DNA of 64,000 nt from positions 2,108,001-2,172,000 of the forward strand of contig NZ_LT703003.1 in NCBI RefSeq assembly GCF_900149695.1, written 5' to 3'. This DNA is from Anderseniella sp. Alg231-50. GTDB taxonomy: Bacteria; Pseudomonadota; Alphaproteobacteria; Rhizobiales; Aestuariivirgaceae. Shown piece by piece: positions 12,288-21,200 of the stretch. Below the pieces are notes generated by a model. It made no database searches, had not been told where the DNA came from, and saw only the letters and a program-made list of their open reading frames with translations. Position 1 is the stretch's first letter; the number at the start of each line of letters is the position of its first letter. Made by a program: the position numbers and the translations under genes.

Positions 12288-12535
12288 TGGTCGAACAACT
12301 TATCCTCCCTGCGGTCGGGTCGTTCTCCGACTCTGAACAACCGTGGGGATGAATTCTGGAACCAGGCCCGACGGGCCTCGGGCCGGTCAGGCCCGCCGCC
12401 GCGGAGCGCAGCCTTCGGCTGCTTGCGTGAGCGAAATCAACTTTATCCTGGAACAGCTTGTCCCCGCTTCGCTCGCGCCGTTCTTGATAGCCGAACAGCT
12501 TTGCTCGGCCCGTTCCCTTGCCTCGCGCCGTTCTG
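12288..12535. repeat. Palindromic repeat block A (three hairpin units plus a GC-rich unit)
   Basis: Fills the space between the methyltransferase and the amidotransferase stop. It holds three units with an outer stem GAACARC...GYCGTTC at 12293-12325, 12451-12483 and 12493-12533. A GC-rich unit at 12364-12440 contains GGCCCGACGGGCCTCGGGCC and ends GCGTGAGCG-AATCAA. Segment 12321-12356 matches 17761-17796 at 32 of 36 positions, and the GC-rich unit reappears inverted at 17595-17678. This mosaic of units is typical of REP/BIME-like repeats. It contains no coding sequence. Confidence 0.85.
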
Positions 12536-13234
12536 TTACCAGCCCTGTGTCGTCATGAAGTTGTCGAACAGGTTTCGGGTCAGTGAGGTGAGCTGCGGTT
12601 GGGCCTCTTCGACATGGCCGACAAAGTTCGTGTAGGCATCTTCGGATTTGCCGGTCTTGTTCATTTCCGTCTGCCAGGACGGTGCCCAGCCGCGGACAGT
12701 TGCGGCATCCCATTCATGATGGAACTGGGTTGAATAGGCATGCGTGCCGACGGTCATCATCTGAATGGCGCACAGGTCCGACGACCCATGCACCAGCGCC
12801 GCACCTGGTGCCTGTTTTACCTCCGCAGAATGCCACTGGGTGACGGTTTGGCTGCCTTTGACCGGGGCCGTATCATCGAATGCCACGGTACACACGCCGA
12901 CCTCCGTCGTGCCGCCATAGCCCACATCGCCGCCCAGAGCGGTGGCCAGCAACTGATGGCCCAGGCACAGGCCGATATAGGGTTTGGCGCGCGTCTCCAC
13001 CCAGTCGCGGATCACAGTCTTTTCTGCGCTCAGCCAGGCGTGTTCGTCTTCTTCCCAGACCTGTTGGGCACCACCCAGGACAACAACCAGGTCGATGCCG
13101 GACATGTTGTCAGGGGTTTCACCGTTGTGCCAGTCAAGGAACGAGACATCGAATCCGCGGTCGCGCAGAAGCGCGGGGAAACAACCGCCGGTATCATCAC
13201 TCATATGACGGAAGACAAGTGCAGTGCGGGTCAT
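12536..13234 (-). CDS. Class I glutamine amidotransferase (GMP-synthase-like)
   Basis: 232 residues. The nucleophile elbow is GLCLGHQLLA (about residue 93) and the second catalytic site is represented by STQFHHEWD (about residue 170), so a working Cys-His-Glu type triad is likely. The family releases ammonia from glutamine or hydrolyses gamma-glutamyl compounds; a stand-alone protein of this size often acts on gamma-glutamyl amides. Its TAA stop lies within two or three bases of the last hairpin unit of repeat block A. The start overlaps the stop of the next upstream gene by four bases (13231-13234), indicating coupling. Confidence 0.9.
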   Translation of the reverse strand: MTRTALVFRHMSDDTGGCFPALLRDRGFDVSFLDWHNGETPDNMSGIDLVVVLGGAQQVWEEDEHAWLSAEKTVIRDWVETRAKPYIGLCLGHQLLATALGGDVGYGGTTEVGVCTVAFDDTAPVKGSQTVTQWHSAEVKQAPGAALVHGSSDLCAIQMMTVGTHAYSTQFHHEWDAATVRGWAPSWQTEMNKTGKSEDAYTNFVGHVEEAQPQLTSLTRNLFDNFMTTQGW

Positions 13235-13500
13235 TCAGCGGTAATCTTGGCCAGCTTCTTCTGTGGCAGCGACTGAGGCAGCGGCTGCAGGTGGGCCTGC
13301 GGGCAGAAATCCGCAATCTGCTTCCACGATGTGTTGTTCAGGTTCATTTCGCAACGGCGAAGATTGCCGCGAATACACAAGGTGGTGCCGAGTTCGAAAT
13401 ACTCGCCATACAGGCGGCACCGGCAATTGGGATCAGCACTGGCAGCGGGAGCGGCCAGCAGGAAAACGCTTGAAATGAGCAAATATGCCATCGATTTCAT
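13231..13500 (-). CDS. Small exported cysteine-containing protein
   Basis: 89 residues. A signal peptide is clear (MKSMAYLLISSVFLLAAPAASA), leaving a mature part of about 67 residues with five cysteines in PNCRCRLYGEY, LCIRGNLRRC and ADFC, probably disulfide-bonded. The stop overlaps the amidotransferase start by four bases. No strong ribosome site is seen; the ATG at 13491 is an alternative. I do not recognise the family. Confidence 0.72.
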   Translation of the reverse strand: MKSMAYLLISSVFLLAAPAASADPNCRCRLYGEYFELGTTLCIRGNLRRCEMNLNNTSWKQIADFCPQAHLQPLPQSLPQKKLAKITAE

Positions 13501-13642
13501 GGCGCAATGATAGCGTAAATGGGATTTTTACGCTAGAGCAACAAATATTCCTTACAGGGAGCATAAGCAGGCCGAACCGCTCTTGAGACGATCTCACCTT
13601 TAAAAACAACCAGTTAAATCTGATCAAAAGTGATCCCGAAGG

Positions 13643-18446: not shown

Positions 18447-18483
18447 ACCGCAACGCGTAATGCAGACGTCGACATTGGACCGG

Positions 18484-21147
18484 TTACTTCGCCTTACCCC
18501 GATACGTCCTTGTCCCCGGTTTTCCACCAGATGACTTACCCTTCGGAACAGGCTTGCCTTTTGGCCAGAGTTCTTCCGGCGCGACGATGCGGGAGCTTGC
18601 TTCCTTTGCTGGTCGAACAGCTTTGCTTCGCCCTGCGGGCTTCGCGCTGTTCTCCGTTCCCCGGGCACCGATTTCCATGCCGGTCTGCTTGGCCAAAGGG
18701 TCGTCCATGACGGCCAGTTCGGTTTCGCGCAGGCGCTTGATCTCGTCGCGCAGGCGGGCGGCGGTTTCGAATTCGAGGTCGGCTGCGGCGGTGCGCATCT
18801 TCTTTTCCATGTCCTCGATGACCGTTTTGAGGTTGTGGCCGACAAAAGCGCCTTCCTCTTCGGCCAGCCCTGTGCCGTGGGTTGCCTTGACCCGCACATG
18901 ATCGCCTTCGTAGACCGAGTCCAGGATATCGGCGATGTTGCGCTTGATCGACTGCGGCGTGATGTTGTTGGCCTCGTTATATTCGAGCTGCTTGGTGCGG
19001 CGGCGGTCGGTCTCGTCGATGGCACGCTGCATCGAACCGGTGATCTTGTCGGCATACATCAGCACGCGCCCGTCGACATTACGCGCGGCGCGGCCCACTG
19101 TCTGGATCAGCGAGGTTTCGGAGCGCAGGAAGCCCTCCTTGTCGGCGTCCAGAATGGCGACCAGCGCACATTCTGGAATATCCAGGCCCTCGCGCAACAG
19201 GTTGATGCCGACCAGCACGTCGAACGCGCCAAGGCGCAGGTCGCGGATGATCTCGATGCGCTCCAGCGTATCGATGTCGGAATGCATGTAGCGCACGCGG
19301 ATGCCCTGTTCATGCATGTATTCGGTGAGGTCTTCGGCCATGCGCTTGGTCAGCACGGTGACCAGCGTCCGGTAGCCTGCCTTGGCCACCTCGTGGCATT
19401 CGGCAATCAGGTCATCGACCTGTGTGGCGACGGGCCGGATTTCAACCGGCGGATCGATCAGGCCGGTGGGCCGGATGACCTGTTCTGCGAACACGCCGCC
19501 GGTGCGTTCCATCTCCCATGACCCCGGTGTCGCCGATACGTGCACGGTCTGCGGGCGCATGGCTTCCCATTCCTCAAACCGCAACGGGCGGTTGTCGATG
19601 GCCGACGGCAGGCGGAAGCCGAATTCGGCCAGTGTCGCCTTGCGGTTGAAGTCGCCGCGGAACATGCCGCCGATCTGCGGCACGGTGACATGACTTTCAT
19701 CGAGGAACACCAGGCAGTTGTCGGGCAGGTACTCAAACAGCGTCGGCGGCGGCTCGCCGGGTGCGCGCCCGGTCAGGTAGCGCGAATAGTTCTCGATGCC
19801 GGCACACGAACCTGTCGCCATCATCATCTCGATGTCGAACAGGGTGCGCTGTTCGAGCCGCTGGGCTTCCAGCACGCGGCCGGCGGCATGGAATTCGTCG
19901 AGCCGGATGGTCAGTTCGTGCTTGATGCGCTTGACCGCCTGGTCCAGCGTCGGCTTGGGCGTCACATAGTGCGAGTTGGCGTAGATCTTGACGTGCTCGA
20001 GCTCCGCCGTCTTCTGGCCGGTGAGCGGGTCGAACTCGGTGATGTTCTCGATCTCGTCGCCGAACAGCGACAGCCGCCAGGCGCGATCATCCAGATGCGA
20101 CGGGAATACTTCCACCGTGTCGCCGCGCACCCTGAATGCGCCGCGGGTAAAGGCCTGGTCGTTGCGCTTGTACTGCAGCGCGACAAGGTCAGTCAGTAAC
20201 TGGCGCTGGGCAATGCGCTCACCCAGCTTGAGCTGGAAGGTCATGGCGGAATAGGTTTCCACGTCGCCGATACCGTAAATGCACGACACCGAGGCCACCA
20301 CGATGACGTCGTCGCGCTCCAAAAGCGCGCGCGTCGCGGAGTGACGCATGCGGTCGATCTGTTCGTTGATCGAGCTTTCCTTCTCGATATAGGTGTCGGT
20401 GCGCGGCACGTAGGCTTCCGGCTGGTAATAGTCGTAATAGGAGACGAAATACTCGACCGAGTTGTCCGGGAAGAACTGTTTGAACTCGCCGTACAGCTGG
20501 GCGGCCAGTGTCTTGTTGGGGGCCAGGATCAGGGCAGGGCGCTGGGTCTCCTCGATCACCTTGGCCATGGTGAAGGTCTTGCCCGAGCCGGTGACGCCGA
20601 GCAGCACCTGGTCGCGTTCGGCCGTGTTGATGCCGTCTACCAGTTCCCTGATTGCGGTGGGCTGGTCACCCTTGGGTTCGAATTCCGACACGGATTTGAG
20701 CGATACGCCGGATTCGGTTTTTTCCGGGCGTTCCGGCTTGTACGGCACGAAGACTTCAGGGGTCGGCAGGTCTTCCAGCTGCGGGCGCAGAAACTCCAGT
20801 CCCTCGCGCGGCCGGGTGGTGGCGCCCGCCGCCATGCGTTTTTCCTGCTCGATGGCTTCAGCGGCACGGGCCTCCTGCAGTTTCTTGCCGGCGGCCGGAT
20901 CAGGACGTGCGCGCAGGGCTTCGGACAGGGGCTGGCCGGTTATGGGATCAAAGGCGGGATCGTTTTTTGCGCCCGTGCCGGACCGGCCGTCGCCGGTCGG
21001 CTCCGCGGGGGCGGCCTGACCGGCCGGCGCGCGGTCGCGCTTGCCAGGCTTCGCCTGGAGGTCATCTACCGTCGGAATGGTTTCATAACCTTCCAGTGGT
21101 TCAACCGGGGCTTCCCTGAACCCGCCGCTTTGCTTGTTGTGACCCAT
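18484..21147 (-). CDS. uvrB: Excinuclease ABC subunit B
   Basis: 887 residues. UvrB is the DNA-damage-verifying helicase-like subunit of nucleotide excision repair. The core starts near residue 155 ([16 protein letters not shown]), with Walker [13 protein letters not shown], the beta-hairpin region [18 protein letters not shown] as Walker B, and late QTVGRAARN. The UVR motif that binds UvrC is [14 protein letters not shown] near residue 795. The roughly 155-residue low-complexity extension before the core is longer than in E. coli (about 670 residues in all) but long forms occur in rhizobia. The tail after the UVR motif contains an in-frame palindromic repeat. No clear ribosome site precedes the ATG; repeat D occupies the leader. 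Confidence 0.96.
18610..18657. repeat. Palindromic repeat C inside the uvrB coding frame
   Basis: A repeat unit with outer stem GAACAGC (18615-18621) and GCTGTTC (18646-18652), plus the same TGGTCGAACAGCTT lead and GTTCTCCG trailer as blocks A and B. It encodes [15 protein letters not shown] of the uvrB tail, just after the UVR motif, with no frame disruption (48 bases). Of all units in the window this one has the only fully Watson-Crick outer stem. Confidence 0.8.
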
Positions 21148-21151
21148 ATTG

Positions 21152-21200
21152 TTGTTCGATCAACTTGTCCGCCGACACATGGTGTCGGCGGGTCGATCTC
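21152..21200. repeat. Palindromic repeat D in the uvrB leader
   Basis: Outer stem GATCAAC (21158-21164) with GTCGATC (21192-21198) encloses a perfect ten-base hairpin CCGCCGACAC-ATG-GTGTCGGCGG. The layout matches the other units although the stem sequence differs by paired changes. It ends about ten bases before the uvrB ATG in the transcript direction, where a ribosome site would normally be, so it may affect uvrB translation. Confidence 0.65.

Follow-up and report, generated by a model that had tools for sequence, protein, structure and literature searches.

Small palindromic repeats of bacterial genomes have been described in several kinds, which we take here from excerpts of the cited papers. 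Repetitive extragenic palindromic (REP) sequences of the GTAG type, accompanied by a REP-associated tyrosine transposase (RAYT), combine a short palindrome (20–40 bp) with a short 5' head, occur in many copies in intergenic regions, mainly 3' of genes, and show complementary stem variants, GT pairing, clusters and intragenic copies, with many of their loops fitting TY or CMA (Di Nocera et al. 2013, PMC3733652). According to the same source, CGTC REPs, including Neisseria dRS3 and Rickettsia RPE-4 and RPE-6, are mainly alphaproteobacterial, have a CCA-like tail and loops of 4–5 nt, lack a dedicated transposase, and have copies in uvrB of Rickettsia conorii. Rickettsia palindromic elements have entered dozens of coding genes in frame (PMC10969869, PMC3733652). 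Here we describe a hairpin repeat, hairpin A, which occurs six times in a window of 64,000 nt from Anderseniella sp. Alg231-50 (the whole stretch analysed, contig NZ_LT703003.1, positions 2,108,001 to 2,172,000), including a copy within the uvrB gene.

Hairpin A shares with GTAG REPs a palindrome of that size with a short head, the many copies mainly 3' of genes, the complementary stem variants, the GT pairing, the clusters and the intragenic copies; it differs in its GGAG head and GNA loops, in forming direct tandem arrays and composites with a GC-rich companion repeat (module B), and in the absence of Y1/RAYT from the examined genomes of its genus. With CGTC REPs it has in common the alphaproteobacterial host, the CCA-like tail and the copies in uvrB, but it has no CGTC head, its loops are of 3 nt, and its outer stem carries a separate inner hairpin; as for a dedicated transposase, Y1_Tnp (PF01797) was found in none of the six genus genomes and RVT_1 in three, other transposases not having been searched. 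No earlier description of the family was found in the literature searched. What is new is an untagged REP-like hairpin family, the kind itself being already known: hairpin A is not literally a known REP, having neither a GTAG nor a CGTC tag and no Y1/RAYT in the genus, while it is REP-like in kind and some of its composites are MITE-like (MITE, miniature inverted-repeat transposable element). We give a probability of about 0.5 to the interpretation that it is a REP-like mobile element, small and non-autonomous, for which no transposase is known, and that this element, confined to a single alphaproteobacterial genus, is selected as a single-stranded hairpin.

Read on the reverse strand, hairpin A has the form GGTCGGA-GAACGGC-(inner hairpin)-AA-GCTGTTC-GACC-A, with an inner hairpin of three common and several private types and a core of 31–38 nt in the common ones. 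A first, sequence-only reading of the window had proposed six palindromes, all of which lie where it placed them with the arms it gave, and each of them, always in minus-strand GGAG form, was recovered at E 1.5e-19 to 6e-6 by R1, a covariance model of 51 positions and 11 pairs that was derived from 34 own-genome copies, four of the six among them. The compensated stem changes it had described are also present, pair 6 passing from G-C to A-T in the copies at 12293 and 21158 and pair 3 from A-T to T-A at 21158, and the remaining A/C mismatch is indeed G.U (G.T in DNA) on the reverse strand. The flank that it considered shared, TGGTCGAAC, is exact in only three of the six copies (12289, 17724, 18611). 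A search of the window with the pattern GGTCGAACARCTT gave 50 matches at ≤3 mismatches against 25.3 expected, a number reached by none of 100 shuffles; most of these matches are not family members.

Among 108 distinct copies (alignment A2), 98.5% of cells in the 7-bp outer stem are paired, with two-sided changes at pair 15-48 in nine rows and at pair 12-51 in two. None of 500 shuffles of A2 came up to these values, in a control that takes no account of relatedness and on an alignment fitted to the model, and slid versions of the helix were far less paired; in 34 own-genome copies not fitted to the model (A1), the same 7-bp helix is 98.3% paired. The outer GGTC/GACC helix is looser (66.6%). Two own-genome copies (L010, 3111-3216) keep the outer stem around private, long inner palindromes. 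In A1 the head is GGAG in 27 of 34 rows, never GTAG, and never a CGTC (TGTC, CCTC) tag; GTAG is also missing among the head types given for A2 (137 of its 139 rows) and for a third alignment, A3 (70 of 72 rows). Tandem arrays consist of up to seven units of 43–46 nt in direct repetition, and in the arrays displayed a GGA-ending head stands only before the first unit. Opposed pairs of hairpin A are also found (for example, L014 and L054).

Scanning genomes with R1 showed a family restricted in range. The own genome (4.61 Mb) has 50 matches at E ≤ 1, two of them weaker than E 0.001; the 9-kb cluster seen by the sequence-only reading is real, though only one of several, others comprising five matches in 5.5 kb (C2:565-571k) and four in 1.1 kb (C2:323-324k). 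All six genus genomes searched, three of which are 78–86% complete, contain the repeat (49, 15, 48, 4, 48 and 28 matches at E ≤ 0.01, 192 in total), and none of 63 other genomes of the family does (E ≤ 1e-6, stricter filters). A pattern scan of 84,980 named species returned 61 stretches, the majority belonging to Anderseniella metagenome-assembled genomes (MAGs) and two alphaproteobacterial MAGs. The genus of the six repeat-bearing genomes is probably Anderseniella, which NCBI places in Parvibaculaceae. Spread beyond the genus was considered and rejected after ten stray loci of the pattern scan had been rescanned with R1: the strongest, L052 on a Methylococcaceae UBA2778 contig, has two strong Anderseniella-type copies directly after an assembly NN, in what is probably a chimeric scaffold of a public MAG, and both L087 (34.6 bits) and L074 look by eye like coding sequence.

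The reverse strand is the folding strand, as had been proposed, on the evidence of G.U/T at one pair, tandem G.A mismatches and GNA loops. In 96 of the 108 rows that strand has G.U(T) at pair 14-49, where the opposite strand has A.C; the tandem G.A mismatches lie on it in two of the three common inner stems, and the GGAG strand forms the more stable fold in 139 of 146 copies with DNA parameters and in 130 of 146 with RNA parameters. Loops of 3 nt predominate, and of 82 distinct inner sequences 57 carry GNA as their apical loop, c-g-closed in 55 (GAA 26, GCA 20, GGA 5, GTA 4) and otherwise closed in two, while TNC occurs in none of the 82; the background, c-closed hairpins outside the repeats with a 5-bp stem and a 3-nt loop, has GNA and TNC in 9 of 175 each. 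Hairpins of module B follow the same rule on the strand opposite to that of hairpin A. Around module B motifs, loops with arms of three types number 423 (GNA 234, GNYA 73, GNRA 42, TNC 37, rest 37), a count that takes no account of descent; those TNC loops that fall in the GCAC class probably come from reading hairpin A in reverse.

GNRA is the tetraloop preference of RNA, and d(cGNNAg) is a known DNA motif. Since a single transcript could not show the loops of both strands, and since pyrimidines are at least as common as purines at the third loop place, single-stranded DNA is favoured over RNA, and we hold with moderate confidence that the selected form is a single-stranded DNA hairpin. GNA is an unusually stable DNA loop (PMC6479982), and GAA mini-hairpins of DNA melt 6 degrees above GTA ones (PMC6479982, citing Yoshizawa 1997). 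The extra-stable DNA mini-hairpins (Hirao 1994, Yoshizawa 1997, cited in PMC6479982) have the same c-g-closed GNA loop, with any N, and GAA is commonest in hairpin A; they are a matter of loop chemistry, whereas hairpin A is a repeat family, and the literature searched yielded no repeat family with GNA as its loop rule. The choice between DNA and RNA becomes testable in this family through its GNA/GNNA loops, which lie on opposite strands in adjacent hairpins and show no preference for GNRA.

Genomic context was read from gene calls by a codon-usage caller made for the analysis, at examined loci with 211 matches, of which 177 remain once those identical in sequence and 20-nt flank are counted singly; these loci leave out a part of the 192 genus matches, at least three of the four in G003 among them. 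The 177 unique copies comprise 71 between convergent genes, 34 co-directional sense, 15 co-directional antisense, 17 divergent and 5 in called genes, with 35 at locus edges outside the context classes; as 121 clusters they make 54 convergent, 30 co-directional (21 sense, 9 antisense), 13 divergent and 3 inside genes, with 21 edge clusters likewise unclassed. Convergent genes are the commonest neighbours, and in 20 of the 54 convergent clusters the tail (GACC side) is no more than 60 nt away from a gene end, the head in one. Upstream of GGTCG, positions -8 to -4 are T in 56–84% of 135 non-tandem copies; 56 of the 135 have a TTTT no more than 15 nt from the tail, as do 3.4% of random positions, most of them coding, taken from these loci. 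The T-tract may be either a target or a piece of the element itself.

Clear intragenic copies number 4 of 177 (the edge copies being unclassed), and all are in uvrB, sense and in frame, in contrast to the dozens of genes entered by Rickettsia palindromic elements. They lie in the C-terminal tail in the own genome, G005 and G004, and in an N-terminal extension in G002; a fifth copy called intragenic (L060) begins 6 nt past the called start and is probably extragenic. A module B variant, module B', stands instead in the N-terminal extension of the own genome and G004 and in the C-terminal tail of G003, where its 30-mer has 0, 1 and 0 mismatches in own, G004 and G003, respectively; own, G002, G003 and G005 also have this 30-mer at places other than uvrB. 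All these inserts are in variable segments between conserved blocks. The N-terminal site of G002 and G005 still resembles the right end of module B', so that deletion is as possible as insertion there, and the C-terminal tail of G002 retains a decayed right arm of hairpin A. The CCGG that surrounds the B' insert shares bases with the module's own GG, and no target duplication is established at uvrB. In the own genome a further hairpin A copy, in the leader, ends 6 nt short of the called start of uvrB; it has counterparts in G004 and G002, with the inner stem paired in all three (CCGCC..GGCGG own, CCACC..GGTGG G004, CCGCC..GGTGG G002). Similar decoration of uvrA was considered and rejected, its open frames being 976–977 aa in five genomes, without length change, and a fragment in the sixth; a structure prediction for UvrB (mean predicted local distance difference test score 34.4) was not used.

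Rickettsia conorii has been reported to carry REPs in uvrB, and REPs are likewise reported from other repair genes, with doubt cast on a fortuitous origin (Di Nocera et al. 2013, PMC3733652, as excerpted), and palindromes in uvrB are therefore a known phenomenon; the novelty here is that the copies come from a family with neither GTAG nor CGTC tag. A second, unrelated palindrome family inside uvrB adds to the puzzle raised in 2013, when insertions in excision-repair genes were held hard to call fortuitous (PMC3733652).

At the orthologous sites compared, the element is usually kept, and unit number and inner type differ: L021 has three model matches against one each in L060, L069 and L051. Certain sites are occupied in one species and empty in others; that of the L010 pair, for example, is filled in the own genome and unfilled in G005, G004 and G002. 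Y1_Tnp is present in 13 of 69 family genomes by a profile that also detects 5 of 14 controls, and the hairpin repeat has no match in those 13 genomes. A reverse transcriptase was rejected as a general mover, RVT_1 being absent from G002 and G004, which have 48 matches each. Module B motifs lie within 420 nt on the head side of 142 of the 177 hairpins, and module B has 68 matches in the own genome.

If hairpin A is a REP-like mobile element, its selected form would be a single-stranded DNA hairpin exposed in replication or repair, and an enzyme recognising the exposed hairpin would copy or move the element into T-rich gene ends; with no Y1/RAYT encoded today in the examined genus genomes, that enzyme would have been lost or be of another kind. 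Copies would persist where they are tolerated, at gene ends and in variable UvrB tails, and some are probably transcribed. Several results weigh against this interpretation. Other c-g-closed N-N-A triloops occur in 13 of the 82 inner sequences (8 AAA, 2 ATA, one each of ACA, CCA and CGA) and other loops again in 12; the shuffle control has the limits given above; a lagging-strand bias was looked for and rejected (54 of 106 by local GC skew, no link to orientation); and since no target-site duplication was read at the orthologous sites compared and most of them keep their copy, recent movement is unproven. Moreover, many copies lie where 3' transcripts are likely, so that RNA selection is conceivable. 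The sequence-only reading had inferred selection on reverse-strand RNA, and of this the compensation and the strand hold, RNA in particular being only one option, as G.T, tandem G.A and GNA can also be stable in DNA. A hairpin in 3' untranslated RNA, acting as stabiliser, processing site or barrier, would fit the G.U pair so widely kept, a pairing interpreted likewise in REPs by Di Nocera et al. (PMC3733652, in the excerpts), the 54 of 121 convergent clusters, in which one strand is always sense, and the sense excess of co-directional ones (21 of 30). We nevertheless consider it unlikely, given the 9 of 30 antisense clusters, the module B loop rule on the other strand without GNRA preference, the absence of any Rfam match above gathering score in the window (the only sequence scanned), and arrays and presence/absence differences that resemble mobile DNA.

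Rival accounts of the DNA itself differ in what is taken to move. In a classical REP/REPIN (REP doublet forming hairpins) family whose RAYT was lost from the genus, hairpin size, the short GGAG head, the gene-end location, the intragenic copies and the Y1 transposases elsewhere in the family would all find a place; the absence of GTAG heads from A1 and of Y1_Tnp from the six genomes, the lack of repeats in the 13 family genomes with Y1_Tnp, and arrays built of direct repeats, though opposed pairs occur, leave this possible but somewhat doubtful. The moving unit might instead be a composite in which hairpin A is cargo between two module B parts, the inverted ends of the composite (TTTATNTCGCTCACGCAAGCAGCC and complement) being recognised by an ordinary transposase. 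Inverted ends do bound hairpin A clusters as in bacterial MITEs (PMC10969869, PMC5896051, in the parts consulted): of 96 one-orientation clusters with enough flank, 25 have them on both sides, a count that tells against the preferred reading, 46 on the right only and 5 on the left only, and inverted arms surround the window composite at 17599-17895. Yet 20 clusters have neither end, hairpin A is also solitary or forms tandem arrays of its own, no target duplication was read, and no parent element or transposase with such ends was found, none having been searched for, so that we regard this MITE-like unit as doubtful; an insertion sequence with TTTATNTCGCTCACGC-type ends, if found, would support it. 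Passive multiplication of palindromes through slippage and gene conversion, needing no enzyme and serving no function, would explain arrays of 43–46 nt units and the different inner types and unit numbers at one gene end between species, but appears quite improbable beside genome-wide dispersal, a fixed place next to T-tracts and a loop rule, which point to copying and structural selection. That the repeats are intrinsic terminators is very improbable: T-tracts adjoin the hairpin and a terminator-like hairpin underlies 13 of 135 copies, but on the GGTCG strand the T-tract is 5' of hairpin A, and the GGAG strand reads it as an A-tract, a placement unsuited to termination in either direction.

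The preferred reading of a REP-like mobile element touches two open questions, what moves REP-like repeats without RAYT and whether their hairpins are selected as DNA or RNA. A bolder version, in which a transposase-less class of elements is spread and selected as strand-specific single-stranded DNA mini-hairpins with a GN(N)A rule and repeatedly settles in frame in uvrB, by a mechanistic link of excision repair to palindrome spread, seems to us rather improbable; if true, it would tie excision repair to the spread of palindromic repeats.

Table 1. Window coordinates of hairpin A copies, module B parts and uvrB
Feature	Position	Strand	Remarks
Hairpin A copy	12289..12334	-	GAACGAC/GTTGTTC in GGAG orientation; 14 nt past 3' end of methyltransferase gene; covariance model
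Module B right-end fragment	12394..12440 (C1:2120394-2120440)	+	GC-rich companion repeat beside hairpin A; module B scan
Hairpin A copy	12447..12492	-	Without GGTCGGA head; covariance model
Weak hairpin A copy	12489..12546	-	29.8 bits; tandem with 12447 copy; covariance model
Inverted module-B-like left end	17599..17666	-	Composite around hairpin A 17724; inverted-repeat search (I7, I15)
Hairpin A copy	17724..17774	-	Inner stem GCAC-GAA-GTGC; between convergent genes; covariance model
Module B copy	17801..17895 (C1:2125801-2125895)	+	Completes composite with hairpin A 17724; module B scan
uvrB	18484..21147	-	887 aa; gene with intragenic repeats; Pfam UvrB, UvrB_inter, UVR
Hairpin A copy within uvrB	18611..18661	-	Sense, in frame; variable C-terminal tail past UVR motif
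Module B' core within uvrB	21013..21042	-	In frame; N-terminal extension
Hairpin A copy, uvrB leader	21154..21207	-	End 6 nt upstream of called uvrB start; counterparts in G004 and G002 with inner stems still paired

Some further observations concern single copies and composites. Were the leader hairpin to fold (21147-21207), its GGAG head would be placed some 10 nt from the called start of uvrB, and it could present a Shine-Dalgarno sequence across the hairpin, the called start being only one option. In L055 of G004 (at 4820), the inverted composite ends run about 20 nt further into the flanks as a near-perfect inverted repeat, as if the palindrome had grown outwards. A GTCATCC...GGATGAC palindrome, by eye similar to CGTC-1/dRS3 REPs, is nested between module B and hairpin A in six loci of relatives (L090, L081, L071, L055, L061, L031). 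On the large scale of C1 GC skew, two regions have the GGAG strand opposite the G-rich one in 11 of their 12 clusters and a third region in 4 of 10, as counted by eye and post hoc. The skew is still positive in the sample at 2.20 Mb and negative in that at 2.33 Mb, and the window (2.108–2.172 Mb) may lie near the replication terminus.

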